Assembly (NCBI GenBank): GCA_030024065.1 | Contig: JASEIE010000057.1 | Location: forward strand, 1 to 13,984 | DNA length: 13,984 nt | Reading direction: 5' to 3' | DNA from: Thermodesulfobacteriota bacterium | Lineage (GTDB): Bacteria; Desulfobacterota; BSN033; UBA1163 | In this document: piece by piece, positions 368-13,984 of the stretch | Layout of the letters: each line of letters starts with the position of its first letter | Numbering within the stretch: the first letter of the stretch is position 1 | The notes under the pieces: generated by a model | The model's input: the letters and a program-made list of their open reading frames with translations, nothing else | Databases searched by the model: none | What the model was told of the DNA's origin: nothing | Position numbers and translations under genes: made by a program

Positions 368-1375
368 ATGGAAAAGGAAGAATTTTACCCAACCGTCACA
401 AATCGCATCCGGGCTCTCAAAGAGAGTAGAAACTATGAGAAAGCCGAGAAAGAGATCCGGCGGGAACTCGAAAAAAATCCCGATCACTCTCTCCTCAAAA
501 CCAGCCTCGCAGACCTCTATCTCCGCCAGGGCCGCCTGAGCGAAGGGAGGATTCTCGTTGAGGACGTTCTCGCCTCGGATCCCCAGCATCCTCAGGCGCT
601 CTCTGTCCTCGGCGATATCTTTCTCAGGCAGCGTTCTCCCCGGGAGGCATTGGAGTGCTACCGGCAGGCCTTCAATCGTGACCCAAGACCTTATCTAATC
701 CTCAAGGCTGCCCGGGCCCTCAAGGAGATGGGAAGTTTTGATGAGGCCCTTCAAGAGCTTGAAAAGGCTCTCGTGGTGAAGCCGGAGAGCCTTGCCTTCC
801 TGAAAGAAAAGGCCGTCATCCTTAACCGTATGAAGAGGTTCGATCAAGCCCTGGAGACCTTTGAAAGAATCATAAAGATTTCTCCTGATGACGCCTTTGT
901 CCAGAAGGAGATCCTCCGCCTTCGAAGCCGGAGCCGTCCTGAAGCCCAGGTCCTGAAGGAACTTCAGATCGTCATCGGCATGGACTCAAGAAAGGATGAT
1001 GCCCAGATGCACGGCCTTCTGGCGCAGAAGCTCAAAGGAGCCGGACAGATCCGGGAGGCTGCCGCAGAATACGGAAAGGCTTCAGGCCTGGAACCCCAGA
1101 ATCCCTACTTTCTGAAGCAGCAAGGATTCTGTTTTTATCGCTTGAAAAAATATGACGAGGCCATCCACTGCCTCAAGGAGGCCTGCCGGAAAGATCCTTC
1201 CGACTACTTTGTCTGGAGCACGCTGGAAAAAAGCTTTGCGGCTCAGGATAATTTGAAAGGGCTGCTTGATCTACTTGAAGAAACTCTTCGGCAATATCCC
1301 AGCCAGAGATCCCTGTTGGGAAAAATCAAGAAAGTCAAAAAGAAGTTGGACCTGAAATCTTCTGAAAGGCATTAA
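368..1375 (+). CDS. Tetratricopeptide-repeat protein
   Basis: A 335-residue soluble protein built almost wholly of helical TPR hairpins. Recognisable repeats lie at about residues 8-38, 42-72, 76-105, 110-138, 142-172, 212-242, 246-276 and 280-310. They show the usual spacing of small residues and a closing Pro (for example NPDH, DPQHP, KPES, SPDD, EPQN, DPSD). Residues 186-210 break the array, and the C-terminus (318-335) is a lysine-rich tail. There is no signal peptide or membrane segment, so a cytoplasmic scaffold role is likely. TPR proteins bind partner proteins and the partner cannot be read from sequence. It ends 6 bases before the RecQ-like gene and is probably co-transcribed with it. 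The ATG at 368 has only a weak ribosome site; the ATGs at 354 and 358 are in other frames. Linking it to the downstream putative defence genes is inference from position only. Confidence 0.85.
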   Translation: MEKEEFYPTVTNRIRALKESRNYEKAEKEIRRELEKNPDHSLLKTSLADLYLRQGRLSEGRILVEDVLASDPQHPQALSVLGDIFLRQRSPREALECYRQAFNRDPRPYLILKAARALKEMGSFDEALQELEKALVVKPESLAFLKEKAVILNRMKRFDQALETFERIIKISPDDAFVQKEILRLRSRSRPEAQVLKELQIVIGMDSRKDDAQMHGLLAQKLKGAGQIREAAAEYGKASGLEPQNPYFLKQQGFCFYRLKKYDEAIHCLKEACRKDPSDYFVWSTLEKSFAAQDNLKGLLDLLEETLRQYPSQRSLLGKIKKVKKKLDLKSSERH

Positions 1376-1381
1376 ACGGAA

Positions 1382-3754
1382 TTGTCACCCTCAGTGCAAA
1401 TGGATCAGCCCTCCCTCCAGGCGCGCCATCTCATGGAGCGGGTCTTCGGATTTCGGGATTTCCGTCCCGGCCAGGAAGGGATCCTCGAAGCCGTCTTCTC
1501 GGGTGAGGATGCGCTCGTGGTGATGCCCACTGGCGGAGGGAAGTCACTCTGCTATCAGCTTCCGGCCCTGGTTCTACCGGGTGCCTGCCTGGTCATCTCT
1601 CCCCTGATCGCCCTGATGAAGGATCAGGTTGATTCTCTCCGGGTGAGAGACATTCCCGTCACCTCTGTCCACAGCCTTATGGGGATGAGTGAGCAGGAAG
1701 AGGTCTTGAGAAAAATTGCAGAAGGATCCTATAAGCTCATCTACGTTTCGCCCGAGCGACTCAAGAATACCCTCTTCATAAGCGCTATCCGGAAATTACC
1801 GATCTCCCTGATCGCCGTGGATGAGGCCCACTGCATCTCCGAGTGGGGTCATGATTTCCGTCCCGATTATCTCCGAATCGGCCAGGCCCTTGACTGGCTG
1901 GGTCGGCCCCAGACCATCGCTCTCACGGCGACCGCAACGGAACGGGTGAGAGAAGACATTGTCTTACAGCTCAGGCTGCGAGCCCCCCGGCAGTTCATCA
2001 CAGGTTTCGATCGGAAGAACCTCTTCTTTGAGGTCTCCCCTGCAAGTAATGCAAAAGAGAAGCGATCCGTTCTTGAAAGCAGGCTGAAGAACACAAATGG
2101 GGCTGCCATCGTCTATGCCGGCACGCGAAAGAGTGTCGAATCGCTCGCTCGTCATTTCAACCGTCAGGGGATGGAGGCGGCTGCGTATCACGCTGGCCTG
2201 CAGGAAGAGGAGCGGAGCCAAACCCAGGAGGCTTTTCTCGAAGGGAGGACAAACATCATCATCGCCACCAATGCCTTTGGCATGGGCATTGACCGCTCTG
2301 ACATCCGGCTCGTCGTCCATCACCAATTCCCCGGAACGGTGGAGGCTTACTATCAGGAATGCGGTCGAGCCGGCCGGGACGGAAAGCCTTCGTCCTGTCT
2401 CCTTCTCTTTTCTATTGAAGATCGCAGGCTCCAGGAATTTTTTATTGAGATGAGTTATCCCGGCCGGGAGATCGTTGTTGCGGTTTATCAGACCCTTCTT
2501 CAAAGGCATGAAGACCCCATCTGGCTTACTTATAAGGAGATGGGACTTCTCTGCAATCCTCCGGTTGCGGAGCTGGCGGTCTCTTCCTCCCTCAAGGTCC
2601 TCGAGGAGGCGGGGCTGGTTCATCGCCTCAACCGTTACGAGAACCGGGCTGAACTCTATCTCAAGCTCCGGCCCAAAGAGATCCCCGGGGCGATGTCGAA
2701 AAGATCATCTGCAAAAACCTCTTTTCTCAACATCCTTTCCGAACACTACAGTGATGAAGAGCTTCTGGAGGGAATCCAGTTTCTCCCGGAAGAGATCATG
2801 GGGAAAGCCGGTTTGTCCAAAGAGGCCTTTCGGCGTATGATAACAGATCTGGAGGAACGAGGGGAAGGAGCCTACATCCCCCCATTTCGTGGAAGGGGGG
2901 TGCGTCTTCTGATCCGGATGCCCCTCTCTGAACTTCCCATTGACTTCGAAAAACTTCGTCTCCGAAAGGCAAACGAGCTTGAGAAACTGAACCAGATGAT
3001 GGCTTACGGAACATCGAGCCGGTGCCGGAGGACCTTCCTCCTGGAGTATTTTGGCGAATACCACTCCTTCGGTAACTGCGGTGGGTGCGATCTCTGTCGG
3101 GACCAAAAGAGGGAGTCAGTTGATAAAAAAGAACAGGACGATCCCCTTCTGGCCGTAAAGATTTTAAGCGGGGTGGCCCGGCTGAAGGGCCGTTTTGGTC
3201 TGGGTATGGCTGTGAAGATGCTGACCGGCTCCAGGGAGAAGGCGATTGCAAGATTCAGGCTGAATCAGCTCTCCACCTTTGGACTGCTCCATGACTTCGC
3301 TCAGGATCAGGTTGAGAAATGGATCCAGGAATTACTCTCCCGGGGTTTTCTGAAGCAGGAGTTGATGGTCATGGGTGAAAAGAATTACAAGATTCTTCTT
3401 CTCACTCCGAAGGGATGGGAAGTCATGAAAAACCAGGAAGAGATTCCTCTTTCCTCTCCCCTTTTAAAAAAGGAGACCGAAGAATGGAGAGAGGAGGAGG
3501 ATTACGAAAAAGGTCTCTTCGATGAACTAAGAAAGCTGAGATTGGATCTGGCCCGCGCTCAGGGCCTGCCCCCTTACTGTATCTTTCAGGACCGCACCCT
3601 GCGGGAGATGGCAAGCCGGCTTCCTGACACGCCTGAAAAGATGATGTCCATTGTCGGAGTGGGAGAGATCGCCTTTAAGAAGTACGGGTCTCTTTTTCTC
3701 AATCTGATTTCGGCCTCGACCCGCAAGGAAAGGGGAAACAGCATTGAAAAATGA
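1382..3754 (+). CDS. recQ: RecQ-family ATP-dependent DNA helicase with HRDC domain
   Basis: A 790-residue superfamily 2 helicase expected to unwind DNA 3' to 5' using ATP. Seen in order: the RecQ motif 0 region (FGFRDFRPGQ, 22-31), Walker A TGGGKS (50-55), DEAH (147-150), LTATA (181-185), the motif VI region QECGRAGRDG (325-334), a zinc site of four cysteines (C548, C566, C569, C572), and a C-terminal HRDC domain (about 711-779). Typical RecQ has roughly 60 residues between motif VI and the zinc cysteines, but here there are over 210. The extra part (about 365-540) contains winged-helix-like sequence. The start is uncertain: TTG at 1382 with AAGG about 14 bases upstream, or ATG at 1400 with no clear ribosome site. 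It may be a housekeeping-type repair helicase or a specialised paralogue. Its place in this gene block favours the latter. Confidence 0.92.
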   Translation: MSPSVQMDQPSLQARHLMERVFGFRDFRPGQEGILEAVFSGEDALVVMPTGGGKSLCYQLPALVLPGACLVISPLIALMKDQVDSLRVRDIPVTSVHSLMGMSEQEEVLRKIAEGSYKLIYVSPERLKNTLFISAIRKLPISLIAVDEAHCISEWGHDFRPDYLRIGQALDWLGRPQTIALTATATERVREDIVLQLRLRAPRQFITGFDRKNLFFEVSPASNAKEKRSVLESRLKNTNGAAIVYAGTRKSVESLARHFNRQGMEAAAYHAGLQEEERSQTQEAFLEGRTNIIIATNAFGMGIDRSDIRLVVHHQFPGTVEAYYQECGRAGRDGKPSSCLLLFSIEDRRLQEFFIEMSYPGREIVVAVYQTLLQRHEDPIWLTYKEMGLLCNPPVAELAVSSSLKVLEEAGLVHRLNRYENRAELYLKLRPKEIPGAMSKRSSAKTSFLNILSEHYSDEELLEGIQFLPEEIMGKAGLSKEAFRRMITDLEERGEGAYIPPFRGRGVRLLIRMPLSELPIDFEKLRLRKANELEKLNQMMAYGTSSRCRRTFLLEYFGEYHSFGNCGGCDLCRDQKRESVDKKEQDDPLLAVKILSGVARLKGRFGLGMAVKMLTGSREKAIARFRLNQLSTFGLLHDFAQDQVEKWIQELLSRGFLKQELMVMGEKNYKILLLTPKGWEVMKNQEEIPLSSPLLKKETEEWREEEDYEKGLFDELRKLRLDLARAQGLPPYCIFQDRTLREMASRLPDTPEKMMSIVGVGEIAFKKYGSLFLNLISASTRKERGNSIEK

Positions 3755-3776
3755 CTTTACGTATTTCAGCGTAAGG
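3755..3776 (+). other. Small hairpin between the RecQ-like and PglYZ genes
   Basis: CTTTACG (3755-3761) can pair with CGTAAGG (3770-3776) with one G-T pair around an 8-base loop, directly after the RecQ-like stop codon. No run of T follows, so this is not a convincing terminator. It might limit read-through or protect a transcript end, or be chance. Confidence 0.25.
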
Positions 3777-3794
3777 TTCATGATGAAAAAAAAT

Positions 3795-3800
3795 AAGGAG
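3795..3800 (+). promoter_or_regulatory. Ribosome binding site that supports the TTG start of the PglYZ gene
   Basis: AAGGAG lies 8 bases before TTG at 3809. The encoded N-terminus that follows (start of the conserved IGDLIEVPEVRTVIQL stretch) resembles the beginning of PglY/DUF6079-type proteins. The TTG is therefore preferred over any internal ATG. Confidence 0.7.
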
Positions 3801-3808
3801 AGAAAGCA

Positions 3809-6800
3809 TTGCTTAAAATTGGAGATCTCATCGAAGTCCCGGAAGTAAGAACCGTCATCCAATTGAAGGACCTTCAGGAGTCAGGTCTCCGGCGGATGAT
3901 CCTCGATTCCTTTGTGGTCACAGACGAGGTGATGAAAAGCCTGGAGATGATCCTGCCCTCTCTTTCCGGATCATCGGGCCGTGGGGGGTTTTTAAAAGGC
4001 CATTTCGGATCAGGAAAATCGCATTTCCTGAGCATCCTCAGCCTCCTTCTCCGTCATCCTGAGGCCCGGGAGGTGTTGATCGGTCAGGAATCCTCCCTTA
4101 AGGATTTTCTGAATCCTCTTGTGTCGCGGCGGTTCCTGGTCGTGGAGGTCTCCCTCATCCAGCACCGCGGGACCGAGTTTCTGGAGGACATCTTTTTGAA
4201 AGCAGTCTTTCGCGAGCTCTCCTTCCACCTGGGCCGGCCTTTTGAGGGAAAAGAGTCACGGCATGAAACATTCCAGGAAATTCGGAATGCTTTGATGAAG
4301 CTTGGCTTTTCAGGACTCGTTCTCCTCGTTGATGAGCTCTCCGAGTTTCTCCGTTCGAAGACCGATGCCCACGCCTATCAGGAAGACATCCGCTTTTTCC
4401 AGTATCTGGGCGAAGAGGCCCCCTCCTTCCCCCTCTGGATCATCGCTTCGCTTCAGGAGTGGATCGAAGAAACAGGAGAGATCAACCAGGACACCTTCAA
4501 TAAGATCAAAGACCGATATCCCATGCGCATCAGCCTTGGCCGCTCCCATATCGAGGAGATCGTTTCTCACCGCCTGATCCGTCATCGGGAAGGGGCTGAA
4601 GAGGAGATCCGGAAGGTCTTCCATCACCTCCGGCGCTATTTTCCCTCCTTTCCGGTCGAGGAATCGAGATTTTCAAGGCTCTATCCTGTTCATCCCGCAA
4701 CGATCACGCTCCTTGACCGGTTGAAGCCCCTTTTCTCCGAACATCGGGGGATCGTGGACTTCATTCACTACCGGCTCAAAGGCGATGCGGAGCGGGGGAT
4801 CCCTTCCTTCTTAAGCAGGCCGGCCCCTGAACTTCTCGGACCGGCGACCATCTTCGACCATTTCATCCACCGCATCCGGGAGATGGCCGAAACACAGCCT
4901 TTTGTTGAAAAAGGGTTCGATTACTATCGGGATGAAATACCTCAAATCTTCAAGGACCCGGACCAGCAGAGGGTAGCCCTTGAGGCGGTAAAGCTCCTCA
5001 TCCTCGTTGCCATCTCTCCGGTTAAAGTTAGGTACACGGCCCGACACATCGCGGAGATGATCCTTTTCCGGGTGACCGATCTAGAAGCCGATCTCAACTA
5101 CCAGTATTTCAGGGATATCCTGGAACGTCTGGCCAAAGAAAGCTCATACCTTACCGTCATCCCCGGAAAGGACCGCCTGGACGACCAGTTCTCCATCACC
5201 CTTCGGGCGGACATTTCTGGAATCCTTCGCCGGAAGATCAGGCAGGGGGTGACAGAAATCTATCCCGGCGACCGCCGCCTCTTTGACCGCCTCCTTCCTC
5301 TTGCCGACTCTCCGCATCTGCCCTTTTCGGGCTGGGCTGAACAGAGAGAGCAAAGGGTGTCCATCTCCTGGGAATATACCCGTCGGAACGGAATGGTCTT
5401 TCTCCGCCAGGTTGATGAGATTCCCCTAACGGAAGCCGAAAGGCTGGCCGGGGAATGGGAACGGATAGAAGAGGATTTTTTTCTCATCGTGGGTACAACC
5501 CACGGGGTCGAGCGACAGTACAAACACCTTCGCGATGTCCTGCAACCTGAGATCAGGGAGAAACACCCGGGAACCTTTCTCTTCTGGATCCCCGCAAGGA
5601 TCGAGGAGGAAGAGGAGGTGTGGATGAAGGAACTTCTTTCGGCCCTCCTGCTTCTTGATCGCTACCGGGAGGAACCCTCGGAGTCCAGGCAGGAGACCCA
5701 GGAGTTTCTAAAGAATCTTATTGACAACGGACGCAAAAGACTCGGAGAGATTCTGACGAAGGCCTACTTCCAGGGCCTTCTTCTCTGGGACGACCGCCAG
5801 GTGGAGCTCTCTGCGTATGGCTACCTCTCCCAGGAGAAGTTTCTTCAGGAGTTCATTCCGCCTCTCCTCTCGCGGAGGTTTCCAAGACACCACAGGGTCC
5901 ACCCTTACCTCGAGGCCCTGGCCCCAACCACGATTCCTAACCTCCTCAGGGATTTTTTTGCCACCGGGACACTCGAGGTCGATGATCGGTCAAAATTCGG
6001 TCTCCGCACGATCCTTGAAGGGCTCCTCAAACCCATGGGGTTGATCAAAAAGAAGGGAAACCAGTATCTCCTCCACGTTGATCCACGAACCAATGAGCTG
6101 GCCGGTCAATTCCTCTCCCTTCTTGAGAAAGGCCCCCTCCCCCCGGGAACCCTTTATGGAGCCTTTCGCAAAGGCGATTACGGTCTCCTGAAGAATCAAT
6201 TTGAGGTCCTCGCCTTCGCCCTCCTCTTCTCAGGAAACATCCTTGCCTATCAGGGGCAAAGAAGGAAAGGACTGGAGGATATCTCCCGAAACGGCCTCCA
6301 GGGGATAACCGTTCTCGGAAAGGGAGAGATCCTCGGTGAAGAGCTCCGGCAGATCATCCCCGTTCACCCGCTTATCCCGGAGAAATTCCGGAAGTCCACC
6401 TTTACCCTCCCCGCTCAGGAAGCCCTCTGGCATGAGGTTAAGGAACGAAAGGAAAACGAGGCAGAGGCATTGCGCAATCTCCTCCAGAGACTTAACTGGG
6501 TTTCCTCTTTTCAGGCCCTGAAAAACCTTCCGTGGGATGCCTTCCGCCGGGATGTGGCGGATGTCCTTGCCCAATGGGAGGAGGTGAAGGCGAGCTTCCC
6601 TCCGAGGGAGGGGCTGGAGAGGTTCTTATCCGCTTCTGCGAGGGAGCCCTTTCTCACTGAAAAGCTTCAACGTCTGGAGGAGCTGAGATCCTTCTTCGAT
6701 CATGCAGAACAGGTCCTCTTTGTCTACCAATATCTCAGCGATCCACGTCTCGTCATCCCGGAGCGCACGGCTCATCCACGCCTCAGGGATGAAAAGAGAG

Positions 6801-8935
6801 AACTCCTTCTTTTTTTTGAAGCTGGAAATGCCTCCATTGACCCTGCGGCGATTCAGGACCTCCTGCAACGCTTTCAGGATTTCAGGGAGAGATATATTCA
6901 GGCCTATGTTGAGGCTCACCGCCGCGCCTGCTCGGATGAACAGTTCGCCCCTTATGAAAAGGTGCGCCATTCACGCCGGTACCTGCTTCTCTCGAGGCTC
7001 AACCAGCTTGAGATCATCTCCGTCCAGCACAATCGCCATTCCGTGGATCGCGGCCTTTCTTCAGTGCTGATTCATCAATGCAACGCCCCTCTTCTCGATA
7101 CCCTTCAGAGAAATCCGGTCTGTTCCTGCGGTTTCCTTCTCGGGACGGAAACCACCTTCATGCCTGCCCGCGAGATCGAGGAGGCGATTGACCTCGGGAT
7201 CCTCGAAACCGTTGAAGCCCTGAACGCTCCCACCTATCAGGAAAAACTCATTCCCTATCTGAACGGCCTCGAAGAGGTCGGGGAGAAGGAGAAGGCCTCA
7301 GCCATCCGAAAGTTGCTCGCCCTTTCACCCGATAGGGGTGAGGACTTTATCTCAAGGCTTGATGAGGCATTAACCCCTCTGGCCATTGAGGGGATCAATG
7401 AGGCATTTCGAGGAAGGGTTGTGGTGGTGGGCCGGGATCTTGACCACCTCTACGGAGCCCTTATCCGACGCAAATATACCCTCTCCCAGGCCCGAAAGAT
7501 CTTCCGGGAGTGGCTCAGGGAAGAGGAAATTTCCGAAGGAACCTTTATCCAGTTCATCGGCAGGGGCGAACCCGGAGGTGAGTCTCCTGACCAGGAAGGC
7601 TTCATCTCATTTGCGGAGACCTGGTTTCCCCATCTCACTGCTCTGATCCAGGAGTCAGGACAGTCTCTTGTTAAAAAGGCCCTTCTTGTTTCCCTCTGGA
7701 TCGAAGGATACGAAATTCCTCCTCAGAAGATCTTTCCTCTTTTCTCTTTCCTTGAAAAAGGGAAGGAGGAGAGGGGAAAACTTCTGGTTCAGCAGCTTTC
7801 CGAGGCCGCAAAAGCCATGCGGCAGAGAGAGCCCGCCCTTTTTGAGAAGGCCGTTCAGGAGGTAGAAAGAGAGGAAGGACTCCTTTCCGGACTATGGAGA
7901 CTTCTTGAAGGAGAAAACACTCTCCATGTCTTTCGCAGGGAAGCGATCTTCCCTTCGATCCTTCGAAAGACCTTTGAGAAACTCCTGGCCTTGCCAGAGG
8001 AGGAGAAAGAAAGTGCGGAGTTGTCTCCTCTCGAAAATTCCCAGTCACCCCTGAGAATATCCGATTTCATCCTCAAACAGTCGGAGATGATCCATGCCTT
8101 AACCGACCACAAAGTCATCCGGCAAAAATTACAGACCCTTAAACGAAGAGAAACCCATCCTCCCCAGGACTCTCAGAAATGGGAATCCTTCTATATCCAG
8201 CATCTAAGTCCTCTCTCCTTCCTGATGACCACTTTTCTTGCCAGGGTTGAACGGATGGGTATTGACCCCCCTTCTCCTGTCAGGGAACGAATGGCTCAGG
8301 CTGACCATCTGTGCGGCCTGTTCTCCAGAGGCTTTTCCGAATTCTATGGGCAGGCCCTTCCTAAATGGGAAGCCGGGGAAGGGAAAAGGCCCACCATGGC
8401 GGAAGACCTCCCCTCTCCGAACTTCTGGAAGGGAATCCTTTCGGAAGGGGCCCAGAAGATACTTGTCCTTATGGATGGAATGCGGTGGGACCTGTGGGAG
8501 TTCCTGAAGGAAAAATTCTTCGGCCCGATGGGCAATCAACTGCGGATCGTCCATGAGGGCGCCCTCTGGGCCCATTCCCCGTCCTCTACGCCGGCACAGA
8601 TGGCGTTTCTGGAAAAAGGCATTGAAAAGACCGGCGCCGAGGGAAAGAGGATAAGAATCTTAAAGATCGGCGGGATTGATGAAAGGGTCCACACAGAGAA
8701 AGGGACGCTCGAACATCTTTTTCGAAACGTCCTTCAATTTCTGGAGCTCGATCTCGCGCCGCGGCTCAGGGAGCTTCCTCCCCAGACGTCGCTCCTTTTC
8801 TTCTCGGACCACGGCTTTATCGAAAATCCCCATTTTGAGAAATCGGACAAATACCGGACCTCTCGATACATGCATGGAGAGGATTCGCCATTTGAGGTGA
8901 TCGTCCCCTGGGCCTCGGTCATCAAGTATCAATAG
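3809..8935 (+). CDS. PglY/BrxC-like ATPase fused to a PglZ-type phosphatase domain
   Basis: A single 1708-residue reading frame. The N-terminus is a P-loop ATPase: Walker A GHFGSGKS (64-71), Walker B VLLVDE (171-176) and a sensor-like IIASLQ (211-216), with an N-terminal block typical of BREX PglY/BrxC or DUF6079 proteins. A small cysteine cluster (C1091, C1105, C1107) sits in the middle. The C-terminus (about 1540-1708) carries the PglZ-type alkaline-phosphatase-superfamily signature: LVLMDGMRWD with D1556 and D1561, SSTP (1592-1595), D1624, SDHG (D1667, H1668) and MHGEDSPFEVIVP with H1689. The expected metal ligands therefore all appear present. In known BREX systems PglY/BrxC and PglZ are separate proteins acting together against phage. 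The PglZ part here seems reduced to its catalytic core. No frameshift or stop is visible at the junction. The gene starts with TTG behind a good ribosome site. The enzymatic role is inferred from family. Confidence 0.85.
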   Translation: MLKIGDLIEVPEVRTVIQLKDLQESGLRRMILDSFVVTDEVMKSLEMILPSLSGSSGRGGFLKGHFGSGKSHFLSILSLLLRHPEAREVLIGQESSLKDFLNPLVSRRFLVVEVSLIQHRGTEFLEDIFLKAVFRELSFHLGRPFEGKESRHETFQEIRNALMKLGFSGLVLLVDELSEFLRSKTDAHAYQEDIRFFQYLGEEAPSFPLWIIASLQEWIEETGEINQDTFNKIKDRYPMRISLGRSHIEEIVSHRLIRHREGAEEEIRKVFHHLRRYFPSFPVEESRFSRLYPVHPATITLLDRLKPLFSEHRGIVDFIHYRLKGDAERGIPSFLSRPAPELLGPATIFDHFIHRIREMAETQPFVEKGFDYYRDEIPQIFKDPDQQRVALEAVKLLILVAISPVKVRYTARHIAEMILFRVTDLEADLNYQYFRDILERLAKESSYLTVIPGKDRLDDQFSITLRADISGILRRKIRQGVTEIYPGDRRLFDRLLPLADSPHLPFSGWAEQREQRVSISWEYTRRNGMVFLRQVDEIPLTEAERLAGEWERIEEDFFLIVGTTHGVERQYKHLRDVLQPEIREKHPGTFLFWIPARIEEEEEVWMKELLSALLLLDRYREEPSESRQETQEFLKNLIDNGRKRLGEILTKAYFQGLLLWDDRQVELSAYGYLSQEKFLQEFIPPLLSRRFPRHHRVHPYLEALAPTTIPNLLRDFFATGTLEVDDRSKFGLRTILEGLLKPMGLIKKKGNQYLLHVDPRTNELAGQFLSLLEKGPLPPGTLYGAFRKGDYGLLKNQFEVLAFALLFSGNILAYQGQRRKGLEDISRNGLQGITVLGKGEILGEELRQIIPVHPLIPEKFRKSTFTLPAQEALWHEVKERKENEAEALRNLLQRLNWVSSFQALKNLPWDAFRRDVADVLAQWEEVKASFPPREGLERFLSASAREPFLTEKLQRLEELRSFFDHAEQVLFVYQYLSDPRLVIPERTAHPRLRDEKRELLLFFEAGNASIDPAAIQDLLQRFQDFRERYIQAYVEAHRRACSDEQFAPYEKVRHSRRYLLLSRLNQLEIISVQHNRHSVDRGLSSVLIHQCNAPLLDTLQRNPVCSCGFLLGTETTFMPAREIEEAIDLGILETVEALNAPTYQEKLIPYLNGLEEVGEKEKASAIRKLLALSPDRGEDFISRLDEALTPLAIEGINEAFRGRVVVVGRDLDHLYGALIRRKYTLSQARKIFREWLREEEISEGTFIQFIGRGEPGGESPDQEGFISFAETWFPHLTALIQESGQSLVKKALLVSLWIEGYEIPPQKIFPLFSFLEKGKEERGKLLVQQLSEAAKAMRQREPALFEKAVQEVEREEGLLSGLWRLLEGENTLHVFRREAIFPSILRKTFEKLLALPEEEKESAELSPLENSQSPLRISDFILKQSEMIHALTDHKVIRQKLQTLKRRETHPPQDSQKWESFYIQHLSPLSFLMTTFLARVERMGIDPPSPVRERMAQADHLCGLFSRGFSEFYGQALPKWEAGEGKRPTMAEDLPSPNFWKGILSEGAQKILVLMDGMRWDLWEFLKEKFFGPMGNQLRIVHEGALWAHSPSSTPAQMAFLEKGIEKTGAEGKRIRILKIGGIDERVHTEKGTLEHLFRNVLQFLELDLAPRLRELPPQTSLLFFSDHGFIENPHFEKSDKYRTSRYMHGEDSPFEVIVPWASVIKYQ

Positions 8936-8996
8936 AAAACGATTCCAGCTCCCCCCTTGGCAGGGAAGACGAACCAGGAGTATGAGAAAATGAATC

Positions 8997-9001
8997 AGGA
9001 G
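8997..9001 (+). promoter_or_regulatory. Ribosome binding site of the SNF2 gene
   Basis: AGGAG lies 5 bases before the first of three consecutive ATG codons (9007, 9010, 9013). Spacing is acceptable for any of the three, so the true start is uncertain by up to two residues. Confidence 0.6.
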
Positions 9002-9006
9002 AAACC

Positions 9007-11670
9007 ATGATGATGACTCTAAAGGACAAACTTTCGTATCTTACCTATAAAGAAGCCTGCAAACTGCTCGGGCCTGAAGGGGAACGATTGATCCGTGCAG
9101 GGGGCAAATATGATGTCGAGATCGCCGAAAACCTGGTCTTGAGGGACGACCTTTTTCAACTCCATTTAGAAGATACCATCGTCACCATGACATTATCCTC
9201 TGAAGCTCCGAAGCGTCTGAAGTTCGGCTGCAATCGGTGTTCCGGGGTATGTGAGCACGTGGGAGCGGCCTTCTCCCTCATCCTTGAGGAGAAGTTGGCG
9301 CTGGGCCTTTCGGCGCCCCCTCCCGAAAGGGTCCCGGTTGAAAGCCTGAGTGATGAAGATCTCATTAAACAGGCCCTTGACGAAAGAGCCGAGCGGGCAA
9401 AGACCGAGAGAATGCAACTAAAGTCCATGGATAAAAACGAATTGTGGACGGATTATACGATTACCAATCTTGATTCAGGAAAAAGCTACCGTGTTGCATT
9501 GAGGGGTTGGGAAAGAGGGGATTCCTACTGCTCGTGCCCCGATTTCCGGAAAAACACCCTGGGCGCCTGCAAGCATATTCTCTACACGATTGAGGCGGTC
9601 AAGAAACGATTCAGTCCATCCGTGAGAAATGCTCCCTACAAGATCAAGGATATATCAGTCCATCTTCGATACGGCAAAGAAGCAGAATTACGGATTCTGG
9701 TTCCCGAAAATCTCGATCAGAAGGCCATGGCATTGATTCGTCCATTCATGAACAGGGCCATTGAAAATGTCGGGGATCTCTTGAAGCGCATCAGAGAGGC
9801 CGAGAATCTTGGGTCCGAGGTGACGATCTATCCCGATGCTGAAGAATATATGAACAAGGTTCTTTACCTTGAGCGGATCAAGCATAAGATAACGGAGATT
9901 CGTAGAGATCCGAAGAGCCATCCTCTTCGGAAAACGCTCTTAAAAACGGAATTGCTCCCTTACCAGCTTGACGGGATCGCATTCGCCGTCGGAACGGGAA
10001 GGTCGGTTCTTGCGGATGACATGGGACTGGGTAAAACGATCCAGGGGATAGGGGTTGCCGAAATGCTTTCACTCGAAGCAGGTATTTCGAAGGTGCTTGT
10101 TGTCTGCCCCGCGTCCCTTAAATCCCACTGGCGTCTGGAGATCCAGCGGTTCTCGGGCCGAAGTTGTCAGTTGGTTCTCGGAAGCGCCGCAGAAAGGGCG
10201 GCTCAATATGATCATCCCTCTTTTTTTACCATCTGTAACTATGAACAGGTCCTCCGGGATCTTCTTGCCATCGAAAGGGTGAAATGGGACCTCATCATCC
10301 TGGATGAGGGCCAGAGGATTAAAAACTGGGAGGCGAAAACAAGCCAGGTGATCAAGGCCCTGAAATCTCCGTTTGCCCTTGTTCTTTCTGGAACCCCTCT
10401 TGAGAACCGCCTCGATGAACTTTATTCGATCGTGGAGTTTATTGATGACCGGCGCCTTGGGCCCGCCTTTCGCTTCTATAATCGTTACAGGGTCGTTGAT
10501 GGAAAAGGCAAAGTGCTGGGATATAAAAACCTGGACGAACTCAGAGAAAGACTGAGACCTGTCCTTCTTCGACGGACAAGAAAAATGGTGATGACTGAAC
10601 TCCCTCCGAGAACAACCGAGATCAGGAGAATCCCTCCCACTTCGGAGCAGCTTGATATCCACGACGGTCAGATGAGGCTCATCCAGATCATCATTTCTAA
10701 AAAGTACATCTCCGAGATGGACCTTCTCCGTCTGCAGAAGGCCCTTCTGATCTGCCGGATGGCTGCAAACAGCACCTTTCTTGTCGATAAAGTCCCACCC
10801 GGTTATTCCAGTAAACTTGTCGAATTCGAGAATCTCATCGATCAGATGATTGAGGAGGAAGACCGAAAGATCGTTCTCTTTTCTGAATGGACAACCATGC
10901 TCAATCTGATCGAGCCCTTGCTTTCAAAACGTAAACTGAGCTACGTCCGTCTGGACGGCTCTATCCCCCAGCAAAAAAGACAAGGTTTAATCTCCCAGTT
11001 TCAAAAAGAGCGGGACTGCAAGCTCTTTATCACAACCAATGCCGGAGCCATGGGCCTTAATCTCCAGGCAGCCAATACCGTCATTAACGTAGACCTCCCA
11101 TGGAATCCTGCGATGCTGGAGCAAAGGATCTCCCGTGTTCATCGCATGGGGCAAAAAAAACCTGTCCAGGCCTTTCTCCTCGTCACGGAAGAGACGCTGG
11201 AGGAAAAATTGTTGGGGACCCTTTCGGCCAAACATGAACTGGCTTTGGCCGCGCTTGATCCCGAATCGCAGGTGAGGACCGTTGACCTCATTAGCGGCAT
11301 CGAGGAATTGAAGAGGCGGCTGGAGGTTCTTCTGGGGACCAGACCGGAGGCCGCCCTTGACGAGAGTCAAAAGGCAGAAGTGGAAAGAGAGGCAGAGAGG
11401 CTTGCCAGGAAGGAAAAAATCGCAGCCGCTGGCGGCCAGCTCCTGGGCGCGGCTTTTGCCTTCATCGGAGAGATGCTTCCTCAAAGAGAAGAGAAAGAGC
11501 AGACCCTTCAGCTGACTGAAACATTTAGGAAACGCCTTTCTGAGTGCCTCGATAAGGATGACGAGGGTCGTCTGAAAATGACCATTACCCTTCAGGATGA
11601 ATCCGTCCTGAACAATCTGGCGAAATCACTGGCTCAGATCCTCGGCTCTGGGTTTGCTGAACCACGCTAA
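9007..11670 (+). CDS. SNF2-family helicase with SWIM zinc finger
   Basis: An 887-residue superfamily 2 DNA translocase. The N-terminal third binds zinc. A classic SWIM motif is at C175-x-C177-x10-C188-x-H190, and a second shorter SWIM-like site at C75-x2-C78-x3-C82-x-H84. The SNF2 core follows: DDMGLGKT (337-344), DEGQ (433-436), LSGTPLENRLDEL (459-471), a second RecA-like lobe with FSEW (625-628), TNAGAMGLNLQAAN (677-690) and the arginine-finger motif QRISRVHRMGQ (706-716). Residues about 765-850 are charged and probably helical. Such enzymes translocate on double-stranded DNA and remodel bound proteins rather than separate strands. SNF2-type helicases occur in some BREX types (brxHII) and in DISARM (drmD). 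Lying 71 bases after the PglYZ gene, this one is a likely functional partner. A role in general transcription, as for RapA, is less likely given the SWIM domain and context. Confidence 0.9.
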   Translation: MMMTLKDKLSYLTYKEACKLLGPEGERLIRAGGKYDVEIAENLVLRDDLFQLHLEDTIVTMTLSSEAPKRLKFGCNRCSGVCEHVGAAFSLILEEKLALGLSAPPPERVPVESLSDEDLIKQALDERAERAKTERMQLKSMDKNELWTDYTITNLDSGKSYRVALRGWERGDSYCSCPDFRKNTLGACKHILYTIEAVKKRFSPSVRNAPYKIKDISVHLRYGKEAELRILVPENLDQKAMALIRPFMNRAIENVGDLLKRIREAENLGSEVTIYPDAEEYMNKVLYLERIKHKITEIRRDPKSHPLRKTLLKTELLPYQLDGIAFAVGTGRSVLADDMGLGKTIQGIGVAEMLSLEAGISKVLVVCPASLKSHWRLEIQRFSGRSCQLVLGSAAERAAQYDHPSFFTICNYEQVLRDLLAIERVKWDLIILDEGQRIKNWEAKTSQVIKALKSPFALVLSGTPLENRLDELYSIVEFIDDRRLGPAFRFYNRYRVVDGKGKVLGYKNLDELRERLRPVLLRRTRKMVMTELPPRTTEIRRIPPTSEQLDIHDGQMRLIQIIISKKYISEMDLLRLQKALLICRMAANSTFLVDKVPPGYSSKLVEFENLIDQMIEEEDRKIVLFSEWTTMLNLIEPLLSKRKLSYVRLDGSIPQQKRQGLISQFQKERDCKLFITTNAGAMGLNLQAANTVINVDLPWNPAMLEQRISRVHRMGQKKPVQAFLLVTEETLEEKLLGTLSAKHELALAALDPESQVRTVDLISGIEELKRRLEVLLGTRPEAALDESQKAEVEREAERLARKEKIAAAGGQLLGAAFAFIGEMLPQREEKEQTLQLTETFRKRLSECLDKDDEGRLKMTITLQDESVLNNLAKSLAQILGSGFAEPR

Positions 11671-11831: not shown

Positions 11832-12200
11832 ATGTCACAAATTAAAGAGGACAAACAGCGTGAAAAACGAATTGATATGGAGATCGTTGTTGATGCCTAC
11901 AATGAAGTGGAACGTGCAATGGGGTGGTATTATTACCTCCAGGATGGTTTGAAATTTCCCTTCAAAGCACGTTGCATTCAAAAAAGATCAACTTCACCTT
12001 TAAAGGTAGAAGACATCGTTGATGTGATCGAGATGGGTAAAGAAGATGATTGCATGCATGATATGTATGTAAACATTAAATGGAATAAGGATGTCTTGTC
12101 AGTCCCATTATCTCAGTTGGAAGGAATCAAACCGATTAAGAAGAACAAACAGATCATGGAGGATTGGCAATATTGGATTAAAAGAGGGTACCAATTCTGA
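11832..12200 (+). CDS. CcbP-type calcium-binding-family protein
   Basis: A 122-residue cytoplasmic protein recognised from its overall pattern as a member of the CcbP family (calcium-binding protein first described in the cyanobacterium Anabaena). Diagnostic stretches are RIDMEIVVDAYNEVERAMGW (13-32), YYLQDGLKFPF (34-44), VPLSQLEGI (91-99) and the C-terminal EDWQYWIKRGYQF (110-122). Acidic residues (D16, E17, D21, E25, E27, and the EDDC stretch 71-74) could bind calcium by analogy. The AMGWYYYLQD core is also what is seen in many uncharacterised relatives outside cyanobacteria, so calcium binding is not certain. It begins 5 bases after the SEC-C gene. The gene is visibly AT-richer than the helicase and PglYZ genes, suggesting a different origin. 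Confidence 0.75.
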   Translation: MSQIKEDKQREKRIDMEIVVDAYNEVERAMGWYYYLQDGLKFPFKARCIQKRSTSPLKVEDIVDVIEMGKEDDCMHDMYVNIKWNKDVLSVPLSQLEGIKPIKKNKQIMEDWQYWIKRGYQF

Positions 12201-12296: not shown

Positions 12297-12647
12297 ATGT
12301 CCAAGAAAAAGGGGATACCAGAGAAGTATCAAATATGGATTGATGCTCGAAAAAGATACCGTCTCTCTGATGTTCATATCCAGATGGCAAGAGAACTGGG
12401 TATGAATCCTAAGAAGTTCGGGAAAATCGCAAATGAAAAACAAGAACCCTGGAAAGCACCGCTGCCTGCCTTCATTGAACATATTTATCTCAAACGTTTC
12501 GGCAAGGATAGACCAGCTGACGTGAAATCCATTGAGGAAGTCTTCAGAACAAAAGAGAAAAAGAAAGAAGAGCGACGGAAGGGAAAAGAACTGCAAAAGA
12601 GGCCGATTTGTCAGATCAAAAAAGGTCAGCAAAGGGGTCAGGCTTGA
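12297..12647 (+). CDS. Conserved basic protein of unknown function
   Basis: A 116-residue protein. I recognise its middle (ARELGMNPKKFGKIANEKQE, 31-50, followed by PWKAPLP and FIEHIYLKRFGK) as a widespread bacterial family without an assigned function. The N-terminal half could form a small helix-turn-helix-like bundle. The C-terminus (about 83-116) is very rich in lysine, arginine and glutamate. GGAGG at 12288-12292, 4 bases before the ATG, is a good ribosome site. The last four codons and the stop are formed by the left inverted repeat of the following transposase unit, so the natural C-terminus may have been replaced when that unit inserted. No function is proposed. Confidence 0.7.
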   Translation: MSKKKGIPEKYQIWIDARKRYRLSDVHIQMARELGMNPKKFGKIANEKQEPWKAPLPAFIEHIYLKRFGKDRPADVKSIEEVFRTKEKKKEERRKGKELQKRPICQIKKGQQRGQA

Positions 12648-12659
12648 CAAATTGATATT
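12634..12659 (+). repeat. Left terminal inverted repeat of the RAYT unit
   Basis: These 26 bases begin GGGGTCAGGCTTGAC and match the reverse complement of 13618-13643 at 24 of 26 positions; the two differences are adjacent (positions 16-17). The repeat contains the TGA stop of the upstream 116-residue gene (12645-12647) and the TTGACA -35 box of the transposase promoter. Confidence 0.85.
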
Positions 12660-12671
12660 TTGTGATATTAT
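12644..12671 (+). promoter_or_regulatory. Strong transposase promoter starting in the left inverted repeat
   Basis: TTGACA (12644-12649) is a perfect -35 box and TATTAT (12666-12671) matches the -10 box at five of six positions, with a 16-base spacer. Transcription would begin near 12678, only about 5 bases before the ATG at 12683. No Shine-Dalgarno sequence precedes that ATG. The message would therefore be leaderless or nearly so. Confidence 0.6.
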
Positions 12672-12682
12672 TCTATTTTGTT

Positions 12683-13618
12683 ATGGCACGTAAGCCGCGT
12701 ATTCATTATCCTGGTGCTGTCTATCATGTCATCGTTCGTGGAAATGCCGGACAGGATATCTTTTCAAGTGATCAAGATCGCTACCGGTTTTACCTCTTTC
12801 TTCAGGAGGGCCAAGAGAAATTTGCGCATCTCATCCATGCCTTCTGCCTGATGACAAACCATTTTCATCTCATCTTGCAGGTGCAAGAGATTTCGCTCTC
12901 TCGAATTCTTCAGAATCTCAGTCAGCGTTACACGATCTGGGTAAATTGGCGAGAAGGACGAAGGGGACATTTGTTTCAGGGCCGCTATAAAGCTGTTTTG
13001 ATTGATGCCGATACGTACCTTCTGGAACTGATTCGCTACATCCATCTGAATCCGGTTCGTGCCGGTATTGTGAAACGGGCTGAAGACTACCGATGGAGCA
13101 GCCACAGAGCCTACCTGGGAAAAGAAAATATCCCGTGGTTGAGCACAGACTGGATGTTGGCACAGTTTTCGAGCCGTCGGATTTCGGCGCAGCGAAGATA
13201 TCGAGAGTTCATTAACGAGGGGATGGAACAAAGCAGACGGGAAGAATTTTACGGAGGACCGAGAGACACCAGGATTTTGGGAGACGATAGGTTCGCAGAG
13301 GCGATTCTCAAGAACACGCAAGAGGGGAAAGAGCGGAAATTGACCCTCGACGAAGTTCTGGAGAAGGTTTGTAGTGCCTATGGAATCCCGGTAGAAGAAG
13401 TTGTTGCCGCTGGAAACGAACGGGGTCCATCTCAAGCGAGGGGTATGATCTGCTGGTTGGTACGAGAGGCAAGGCACCTTTCCTTAACGGAACTAAGCAG
13501 GCGACTGAACCGAGATCTGTCAACTTTGAGCGTTGCGGCAAAGCGTCTGGTGGAAAAATCGAAGAGTGACCCCGGTTTACGAAAAAGGATGACAAACCTG
13601 AAGTCAGATTTGCCCTGA
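12683..13618 (+). CDS. REP-associated tyrosine transposase (Y1/HUH, RAYT type)
   Basis: A 311-residue single-strand DNA transposase from ATG at 12683. A GTG seven codons upstream would add a hydrophobic oddity that overlaps the -10 box, so it is not preferred. The N-terminal Y1 domain shows the opening MARKPRIHYPGAVYHVIVRG (1-20), the metal-binding HUH pair in NHFHLIL (H60, H62), GRYKA (100-104) and the likely catalytic tyrosine Y119 in RYIHLNPVRAGI. The C-terminal region (about 220-300) resembles a DnaA-like helix-turn-helix DNA-binding domain (SLTELSRRLNRDLSTLSVAA), common in this group. The length exceeds the 130-170 residues of true IS200/IS605 TnpA, supporting the RAYT assignment. The gene seems intact and is flanked by the inverted repeats it may act on. 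Confidence 0.9.
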   Translation: MARKPRIHYPGAVYHVIVRGNAGQDIFSSDQDRYRFYLFLQEGQEKFAHLIHAFCLMTNHFHLILQVQEISLSRILQNLSQRYTIWVNWREGRRGHLFQGRYKAVLIDADTYLLELIRYIHLNPVRAGIVKRAEDYRWSSHRAYLGKENIPWLSTDWMLAQFSSRRISAQRRYREFINEGMEQSRREEFYGGPRDTRILGDDRFAEAILKNTQEGKERKLTLDEVLEKVCSAYGIPVEEVVAAGNERGPSQARGMICWLVREARHLSLTELSRRLNRDLSTLSVAAKRLVEKSKSDPGLRKRMTNLKSDLP

Positions 13619-13643
13619 ATATCAATAAGTCAAGCCTGACCCC
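13618..13643 (-). repeat. Right terminal inverted repeat of the RAYT unit
   Basis: The reverse complement reads GGGGTCAGGCTTGAC at its outer end and matches 12634-12659 at 24 of 26 positions. Its first base is the last base of the transposase stop codon. In this copy the -35-like box is TTGACT and no good -10 box follows it, so unlike the left end it should not be a promoter. Confidence 0.85.
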
Positions 13644-13692: not shown

Positions 13693-13984
13693 ATGGTGTT
13701 GCGGCCGATGGATGTGGAGCGGTTGGTGCCGGAGGATCATGAGGTTCGGGCGATCTGGGAATTTGTGGGGCGACTTGATCTAAGCCCATACTATGAAGAG
13801 GTGGATGCGGTGGAAGGGGAGGCGGGTCGTTCGGCCTTTGATCCCCGGTTAATGATCAGCTTGTGGATTTATGCATATAGCAAAGGAGTTAGCTCAGGGC
13901 GGGAGATTTCTCGGTTATGTGAATATGATCCGGCCTATCAATGGTTAACGGGGTTGGAGCCGGTCAATTATCACACGTTATCGG
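13693..13984 (+). CDS. IS1182-family transposase, N-terminal part (runs off window)
   Basis: An open frame to the window edge encoding the start of an IS1182-type DDE transposase. Recognisable stretches are RPMDVERLVPEDHEVRAIWE, DPRLMISLWIYAYSKGVSSG, EISRLCEYDPAYQWLTG and NYHTLS. This is the N-terminal DUF772-like region; the catalytic DDE part lies beyond the window. The first ATG is at 13693. The same frame is open back to 13657, and the residues encoded there (PRLRPINREQ) look like genuine family sequence, but no ATG, GTG or TTG is available before TAA at 13654. The 5' end may therefore have been trimmed at the junction with the RAYT unit, or translation starts at 13693 or at an unusual codon. 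Confidence 0.8.
   Translation, partial: MVLRPMDVERLVPEDHEVRAIWEFVGRLDLSPYYEEVDAVEGEAGRSAFDPRLMISLWIYAYSKGVSSGREISRLCEYDPAYQWLTGLEPVNYHTLS

Follow-up and report, generated by a model that had tools for sequence, protein, structure and literature searches.

Can a system built from the hallmark proteins of bacteriophage exclusion (BREX) act on foreign DNA when its locus encodes no enzyme that modifies DNA? The question is raised by a row of four genes in a stretch of 13,984 nucleotides from a Thermodesulfobacteriota bacterium (contig JASEIE010000057.1; the whole stretch is hereafter called the window), which encode a tetratricopeptide repeat (TPR) protein, a RecQ helicase, a predicted fusion of a BrxC-type ATPase with a PglZ-type nuclease, and an SNF2 ATPase (Table 1). 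The best reading of our data is that this cassette is a new, modification-free relative or derivative of BREX, located on the chromosome of some uncultured environmental bacteria; judged by its features it works like part of BREX but falls outside the usual definition, since no modification enzyme is found in the locus. We estimate a probability of about 55% that the job of the cassette is the restriction of foreign DNA, as the sequence comparisons set out below suggest.

The BrxC-PglZ fusion protein

Predicted structures and conserved active-site residues show that the third gene encodes a BrxC-type AAA+ ATPase joined in one chain to a PglZ-type metallonuclease. DUF6079 is the sole Pfam match of the ATPase part, which is also matched by the SspC models of PADLOC (best 49 bits). 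PglZ was not reported by Pfam in the window's own protein; its C-terminal part carries the catalytic and metal-site residues D1556, T1594, D1624, H1628, D1667, H1668 and H1689, and PF08665 (PglZ) matches three of the 120 homologues listed (P0030, P0034 and P0035). The chain ends where the phosphatase domain ends, and no segment of it aligned to residues 1-165 of BREX PglZ. Among the features of BREX membership, both a BrxC/PglY-family AAA+ ATPase and PglZ, here the C-terminal part of the fusion, are thus present. The original prediction had placed this hallmark pair in one gene row with two helicases and a TPR protein, and domains, predicted structure and catalytic residues agree on that. A cysteine cluster between the two parts, invariant in the fusions aligned, is a possible zinc site. 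A broader profile search gave 593 proteins at E <=1e-30 among 7992 scored candidates; the 120 listed from it span 1,550-1,754 residues, the farthest among them being 30-31% identical to the fusion of the window.

The best-matching solved structures for the fusion are BREX proteins and PorX. The latter match raises the alternative of a signalling enzyme, in which the PglZ part would, like PorX, break down oligonucleotide messengers, whether cyclic or linear, gated by the AAA+ ATPase and the TPR protein. We consider this improbable, since the fused ATPase matches BrxC, which has been reported as DNA-binding (PMC13326643), and since one clade has a dedicated DNA helicase built into the cassette. 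HerA, BrxA and BrxB folds did not turn up in fold searches, which report mainly the dominant domain of a protein and so exclude none of the three. Among the relatives, the C-terminal part of the fusion in locus L016 has an altered PglZ motif DGMRWD and keeps the remaining metal-site residues, a short C-terminal PglZ fragment lies just 3' of the fusion in L004 (15663-15806), and genome G007 has a second, partial fusion alone on its own contig (C142, locus L042).

The TPR protein and RecQ as partners of the fusion

A scan of a genome collection yielded 35 loci related to the window, all of them by title records of metagenome-assembled genomes (MAGs), with contigs that often end inside the cassette; as such, absences of the TPR gene or of another partner are weak evidence, and split genes may be assembly errors. 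The core of the cassette is the TPR protein and the fusion, and the TPR protein is the most constant partner of the fusion. It adjoins the fusion, or stands one helicase and at most one further predicted open reading frame (ORF) away, in 27 of the 35 loci (25 by clustering and two, L005 and L021, by tblastn), and in L031 it lies 3' of the fusion. Missed TPR genes were sought in ten loci without one, and none was found; L021, which was known to have TPR, was looked at as an eleventh. Among the eight loci outside the 27, L002 starts within RecQ, L029 starts within the fusion, L034 has fewer than 500 bases upstream, and the genome of L001 has TPR and RecQ on another contig, L099, which ends there. 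The arrangement in L001 possibly reflects an insertion into the cassette or an assembly break; a tyrosine integrase (1540-4413) lies directly 5' of its fusion, and a motif scan marked a methyltransferase-like ORF on the same contig. The association extends to seven remote loci from the sampled genomes (about 29-37% identity over the aligned part), where TPR adjoins the fusion in five and is not beside it in L065 and L066. Fifteen loci without RecQ have an overlap of 1-28 bases between the frames of TPR and fusion, counted from longest-ORF starts; these overlaps are perhaps overstated, because the ORF caller takes the longest ORF and uses no coding-potential model. Pairwise identities of the TPR protein and the fusion correlate (rho 0.86, p 0.001, 25 taxa, Mantel permutation test).

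RecQ is confined to part of the fusion family. Of the 35 loci, 14 have it upstream of the fusion, 13 of these with TPR on its other side, and its pairwise identities follow those of the fusion closely (rho 0.96, p 0.001, 12 taxa, same test). Neither correlation is unique to co-inheritance, because common ancestry alone can produce such values. The RecQ of the window has the helicase core, zinc-binding, RQC and HRDC domains, with a long stretch between the core and the zinc-binding domain, and scores 644.6 bits against a cut-off of 640.2 for TIGR01389.

The co-occurrence of RecQ and the fusion was also followed through genome samples in which the best two candidates per genome were scored. The fusion is present in 20 of 395 genomes from the phylum of G005 and in 3 of 295 from the phylum of G003; RecQ was counted in 390 genomes from the former, a set not identical to the 395. 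There the operon type of RecQ (52-70% identity over at least 525 residues, one clipped by a contig start) is found in nine genomes, and other full-length RecQ matches are 40-43% identical; matches that cover only the helicase core, or only two thirds of the protein, are 45-51% identical. All nine are among the 20 genomes with the fusion, one of them, G009, having fusion remnants only. In eight of the nine, RecQ is on the contig of the fusion, and in G303 it is on a TPR-RecQ contig that ends there. The hypergeometric value for this co-occurrence, 3e-13, overstates it, because six of the nine genomes share one order and there were thus fewer events than genomes.

The SNF2 ATPase as an occasional partner

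The fourth gene is an occasional partner. The protein has the pattern C-x-C-x(10)-C-x-H at residues 175-190, which we take to be a SWIM-type zinc-finger motif, and this motif recurs in all five relatives that are linked to a fusion; among these five, L019 alone gave no hit in a Walker A pattern search. Linkage in five of the 35 loci, against 0.16 expected, is above chance, in a count that treats relatives separately (L026/L033 and L013/L016 are related pairs). The gene lies 3' of the fusion in L013 and L016, 5' of it in L019 and L033, and between TPR and the fusion in L026. In L033, two tandem AAA_14/DUF4143 ATPases (3859-6401) are found between SNF2 and the fusion, at the usual position of TPR.

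We weighed here the explanation that the four genes are unrelated neighbours in one chance operon. The SNF2 gene is what speaks for it: its identities do not correlate with those of the fusion (Mantel rho 0.15, p 0.29, 6 taxa), and G303 and G011 carry close orthologues away from the cassette (16 kb and 9 kb inspected). For TPR and RecQ the explanation is refuted by their recurrent adjacency to the fusion and their co-divergence with it, and even for SNF2 the linkage above chance stands against it, though with two pairs of related loci among the five, so that of all alternatives we hold it to be the least probable. SNF2 as an obligate member is ruled out by the unlinked orthologues and the missing co-divergence. 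In a Planctomycetes MAG (G700, contig C125 as locus L094, and L021) the SNF2 protein is 61% identical to that of the window and the fusion only 30%, which indicates that SNF2 has a history of its own.

The four-gene module of the original prediction therefore holds in part. The TPR-RecQ-fusion order recurs, and L016, with a fusion 50% identical to that of the window, has all four genes in the window order. Homologues of the fusion do co-occur with these helicases, a test that had been set beforehand. The four genes are not an obligate set, given that SNF2 is linked in few loci and at shifting positions and RecQ in fewer than half.

Models of Dpd, Zorya, DISARM (DrmD, DrmA) and BrxHI/HII matched, among the window proteins, the two helicases only. 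The PADLOC matches of RecQ (DpdF and others) and of SNF2 (ZorD, DpdE, DrmD and others) look generic to helicases, because the NCBIfam versions fall far below their cut-offs. Defence island system associated with restriction-modification (DISARM) comprises DrmA, DrmB and DrmC plus a methyltransferase. DrmD models gave 141-166 bits on the SNF2 protein against cut-offs of 610-950, a DrmA model gave a weak match, and no DrmB, DrmC or methyltransferase gene is present in the window.

Modification enzymes and other BREX components

The eight proteins of the window were compared with Pfam and NCBIfam, and seven of them, all except the IS1182 fragment, with PADLOC, taking for the helicases the best 25 families. 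No DNA-modification enzyme, whether a PglX methyltransferase or a 3'-phosphoadenosine 5'-phosphosulfate (PAPS) reductase, is among them, and the claim that the window also lacks BrxL, BrxA and BrxB is upheld by the same three collections. A PAPS reductase was not found in the window proteins, in 30 chosen neighbours of fusions or in 145 flanking ORFs (among the best 25 of 177 Pfam families), the only sets searched for it. No HerA/FtsK family member is among the eight window proteins, the search for this family having been confined to the window. Beside the fusion, no third gene recurs widely in the 35 loci except TPR and RecQ; residues 465-1258 of the fusion may hold degenerate homologues of BrxA or BrxB. 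BrxA- and BrxB-like components are said to be universal in BREX in PMC12839542.

A methyltransferase encoded elsewhere in the genome would make the cassette an ordinary BREX whose PglX acts in trans. In a genome-wide search with the type 1 BREX model alone, 18 of 43 carriers of the fusion have a match to BREX_1_MTaseX at E <=1e-10, the curated cut-off is exceeded in two (G703 and G695), and G705 comes close with a partial match of 441 bits against 500. In all carriers but G049 these matches lie on contigs other than that of the fusion, and in G049 the nearer one is about 243 kb off; in G703, G705 and G707 the contig of the match and that of the fusion were told apart only by length or reading frame. 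Most of the weaker matches are probably other adenine methyltransferases. With two of 43 carriers over the cut-off and no match near a fusion, type 1 PglX in trans was rejected, and we regard an ordinary BREX of this kind as very improbable. A standard PglX just outside the window was the other test set beforehand, and no match to the type 1 model lies near any fusion.

Genomic setting and distribution

The layout of four same-strand genes with intergenic gaps of 6, 54 and 71 bases was reproduced by ORF calls and domain searches. A single shared promoter had also been proposed. Our scan does not support it: no above-threshold site was found on the + strand upstream of the TPR gene, to the left of which the window has 367 bases, and the 11 promoter-like matches over the window are close to the number that chance would give (mean 7.1, sd 2.8). 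On the right, accessory genes and mobile DNA were found as predicted: the CcbP-like gene, a small ORF, the REP-associated transposase and the IS1182 fragment. The REP-associated transposase with its inverted repeats is likely a self-contained mobile unit beside the cassette. No tRNA or Rfam feature was detected in the window.

Table 1. Features of the window, with coordinates in the 13,984-nucleotide stretch
Feature	Coordinates	Strand	Basis and remarks
TPR protein, 335 aa	368-1375	+	Pfam TPR repeats
RecQ helicase, 790 aa	1382-3754	+	DEAD, Helicase_C, Zn-binding, RQC, HRDC (Pfam/NCBIfam)
BrxC-PglZ fusion (predicted), 1708 aa	3809-8935	+	DUF6079/BrxC N-terminus, predicted structure, catalytic residues
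BrxC-type AAA+ ATPase and following region, residues 2-464	3812-5200	+	Walker A G64-S71, Walker B D175-E176
Invariant Cys cluster C1091, C1105, C1107	7079-7129	+	34/34 aligned fusions
PglZ part, residues 1259-1708	7583-8932	+	Helical region and phosphatase/nuclease domain
SWIM-type zinc finger and SNF2 ATPase, 887 aa	9007-11670	+	SNF2 by Pfam/NCBIfam, SWIM-type motif
CcbP-type calcium-binding protein	11832-12200		PF11535, E 6e-40; directly 3' of SNF2 gene
Small ORF			Between CcbP-like gene and REP-associated transposase
REP-associated tyrosine transposase	12662-13618		75 bits against family cut-off 80; DnaA C-terminal-like domain
26-base inverted repeats	12634-12659 and 13618-13643		Flank REP-associated transposase; 92% complementary
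IS1182-family transposase fragment	13693-13984		Ends at window edge

Record titles of the 35 loci name Thermodesulfobacteriota, 'Deltaproteobacteria' or 'Proteobacteria', Nitrospirota, Nitrospinota, one Planctomycetes MAG and one unnamed bacterium. In a quick tree, which has a long branch at L069 and whose phylum labels were not used because they derive from submitter titles ('Deltaproteobacteria bacterium' given as Myxococcota), fusions from Nitrospirota and Nitrospinota are joined (L022 with L023, a starred grouping), and three Desulfobacterales/Syntrophaceae loci fall in the same starred clade; the grouping across phyla possibly arose through misbinning. When flanks were compared for 23 pairs of loci, the fusion was common to 22 and a flanking gene to four (L018/L012, L018/L131, L004/L008 and L004/L009), some flanks being short; L021 was omitted from the tree and from these counts, as its reading frame is broken. 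Decay in place is seen in G009 (L131, 5757-9571), at the same site as in L012 and L018, where TPR is shortened and the fusion is in fragments. Broken fusions occur also in L002 (one stop), L034 (two ORFs) and L035 (1664-3318, two ORFs with large parts missing), and possibly represent decay or assembly error.

We favour restriction on four grounds: the cassette has a patchy distribution, its gene order is preserved while its sites change, it decays where it stands, and its parts are of the defence type. Other observations weigh against it. Around the fusions we scanned the 30 chosen neighbours and, out of 232 flanking ORFs with lengths of 150-750 aa, the 145 that lie nearest, none farther off than about 5 kb, and the neighbours that could be identified are mostly metabolic or housekeeping genes, among them those for glycyl-tRNA synthetase, EF-G, YidC/Jag, dihydroxy-acid dehydratase, acyl-CoA dehydrogenases and transporters, and form no defence island; the exceptions among the 30 include an integrase, a CHAT protein and two DUF4143 ATPases. 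The only clear defence genes that PADLOC (E 1e-15; among the best 25 of 27 families) returned in the 145 flanking ORFs are a restriction enzyme and a methyltransferase, one of each and both of Type II. On the same terms, further matches were to mad3 (three ORFs), mad2 (two), PDC-S01 (two) and HEAT-ARM_XIII (one). In viral contigs, 130 candidate stretches gave no relative of the fusion, and plasmids gave N-terminal matches only, at 23-27% identity in seven records, so that carriage by plasmid or phage was rejected. The TPR gene is seemingly absent from L010, L024, L027 and L033, the remaining four of the 35 loci, and is thus not universal. The cassette occurs in six of eight genomes of one order, one being the G009 remnant, and one site is common to three genomes, which together look vertical. 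The operon RecQ is the sole RecQ detected at E 1e-50 in 11 of 14 operon-RecQ genomes (MAGs, maybe incomplete; a second is present in G012, G693 and G011), and in G009 it is full length while TPR and the fusion decay. As a separate observation, a CHAT-domain protein lies in L007 (12994-15327), 3.3 kb 3' of the fusion.

Many of these points fit genome maintenance, in which RecQ, the ORC/Cdc6-like ATPase and PglZ would act on stalled forks or recombination intermediates of the cell itself and the TPR protein would recruit repair proteins, the parts being those of BREX with no role in defence. In its favour are the sole RecQ of most of these genomes and its outlasting of the other two genes in G009, the housekeeping flanks, the frequency within one order and the site shared by three genomes. 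It fits poorly with the very patchy occurrence in the sampled phyla, with decay in place while the upstream flank is kept, with TPR-fusion pairs without RecQ being common, with flanks that differ for most relatives compared, and with BREX proteins and PorX being the best solved relatives. We hold genome maintenance to be less probable than restriction but a strong rival to it, and more credible than any other alternative.

Proposed mechanism and implications

If the cassette does restrict foreign DNA, the ORC/Cdc6-like BrxC-type half of the fusion would, by homology with BREX, bind DNA and undergo assembly controlled by ATP, and the PglZ half would carry out metal-dependent cutting of DNA or oligonucleotides. 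Covalent joining would make permanent the coupling of ATPase and PglZ for which BREX uses BrxB; neither a BrxB bridge nor the BrxB-binding N-terminal part of PglZ would be needed, because both halves are in one chain. The most likely role of the TPR protein is that of a sensor or adaptor by which the fusion is loaded or released. In the clade of the window, RecQ probably unwinds DNA held by the fusion and could supply single-stranded DNA or remodel forks, and the SWIM-SNF2 protein may be an occasional helper. As the cassette has no modification gene, self-protection would have to come from control of activity or from choice of DNA structure, and targets may be chosen by the state of DNA or replication (for instance aberrant forks, DNA ends, or invading DNA that has been unwound) or through a trigger sensed by the TPR protein. 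That the cassette represents the first machine descended from BREX without any DNA-modification step, with a TPR and BrxC-PglZ core, RecQ in one clade, and self and target told apart by the state of the DNA or of its replication, or by a sensed trigger, is a tentative proposal that goes further than restriction as such and that we hold with less confidence. The BREX-like reading stands for a BrxC-like ATPase joined to PglZ with no methyltransferase in the cassette or recurrent beside it, and its anti-phage function is a prediction.

If the proposal is true, BREX restriction is separable from methylation in nature. The path in BREX from host methylation to restriction, and the choice of target by the core complex, are an open question that the cassette addresses: a one-chain ATPase-nuclease, with no BrxB gene or methyltransferase recognised beside it, would be an isolated restriction half that can be studied with two or three proteins. 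Should it be a repair machine instead, a cellular origin or a reuse of BREX parts would be indicated. The cassette would escape any defence finder for which PglX is obligatory.

Comparison with known systems

No description of a TPR and BrxC-PglZ-fusion arrangement was found in the accessible portions of the open-licence PMC literature. The mapping of BREX, BREX-related (BR) and BREX-Related Capture (BRC) systems in PMC12839542 records the joint occurrence of BrxC and PglZ outside known BREX; the words 'RecQ', 'TPR' and 'SWIM' are absent from its main text, and the passages covered, 12 of the 19 places with 'fused' and 12 of the 15 with 'fusion', mention no BrxC-PglZ fusion.

By the same source, BR systems combine a DUF499 ATPase, a methyltransferase and a Swi2/Snf2 helicase, to which type 3 adds PglZ and iSTAND. 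The cassette resembles them in its BrxC-like ATPase and helicase and, for type 3, its PglZ nuclease, whereas its ATPase is of the DUF6079 type, its PglZ is fused rather than free-standing, and no methyltransferase or iSTAND gene was recognised in the window. BRC systems, which always have a HerA/FtsK translocase, together with a STAND NTPase, DUF4007 and a separate PglZ, are alike in having a DUF6079 ATPase and PglZ outside classic BREX and a sparse distribution; in contrast, the window has none of HerA/FtsK, STAND NTPase and DUF4007, and its PglZ is fused. The PAPS reductase that serves phosphorothioation in BREX type 4, and the DUF4007 and BrxL proteins of that type (PMC12839542), are not among the window proteins; type 4 shares with the cassette, as does Ssp, the lack of PglX and a BrxC/SspC-like ATPase. 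PorX has the PglZ fold and its catalytic residues, yet is, by the titles of its structure entries, a response regulator of type IX secretion. BREX type 1 (BrxC, BrxB, PglZ, PglX, BrxA and BrxL) differs in that no PglX, BrxA, BrxB or BrxL gene was recognised beside the window fusion and no counterpart of residues 1-165 of its PglZ was aligned there. Common to both are the BrxC-type ATPase and PglZ, with their conserved Walker and metal-site residues, which in the window are one chain with a TPR protein, and often RecQ, encoded beside it.

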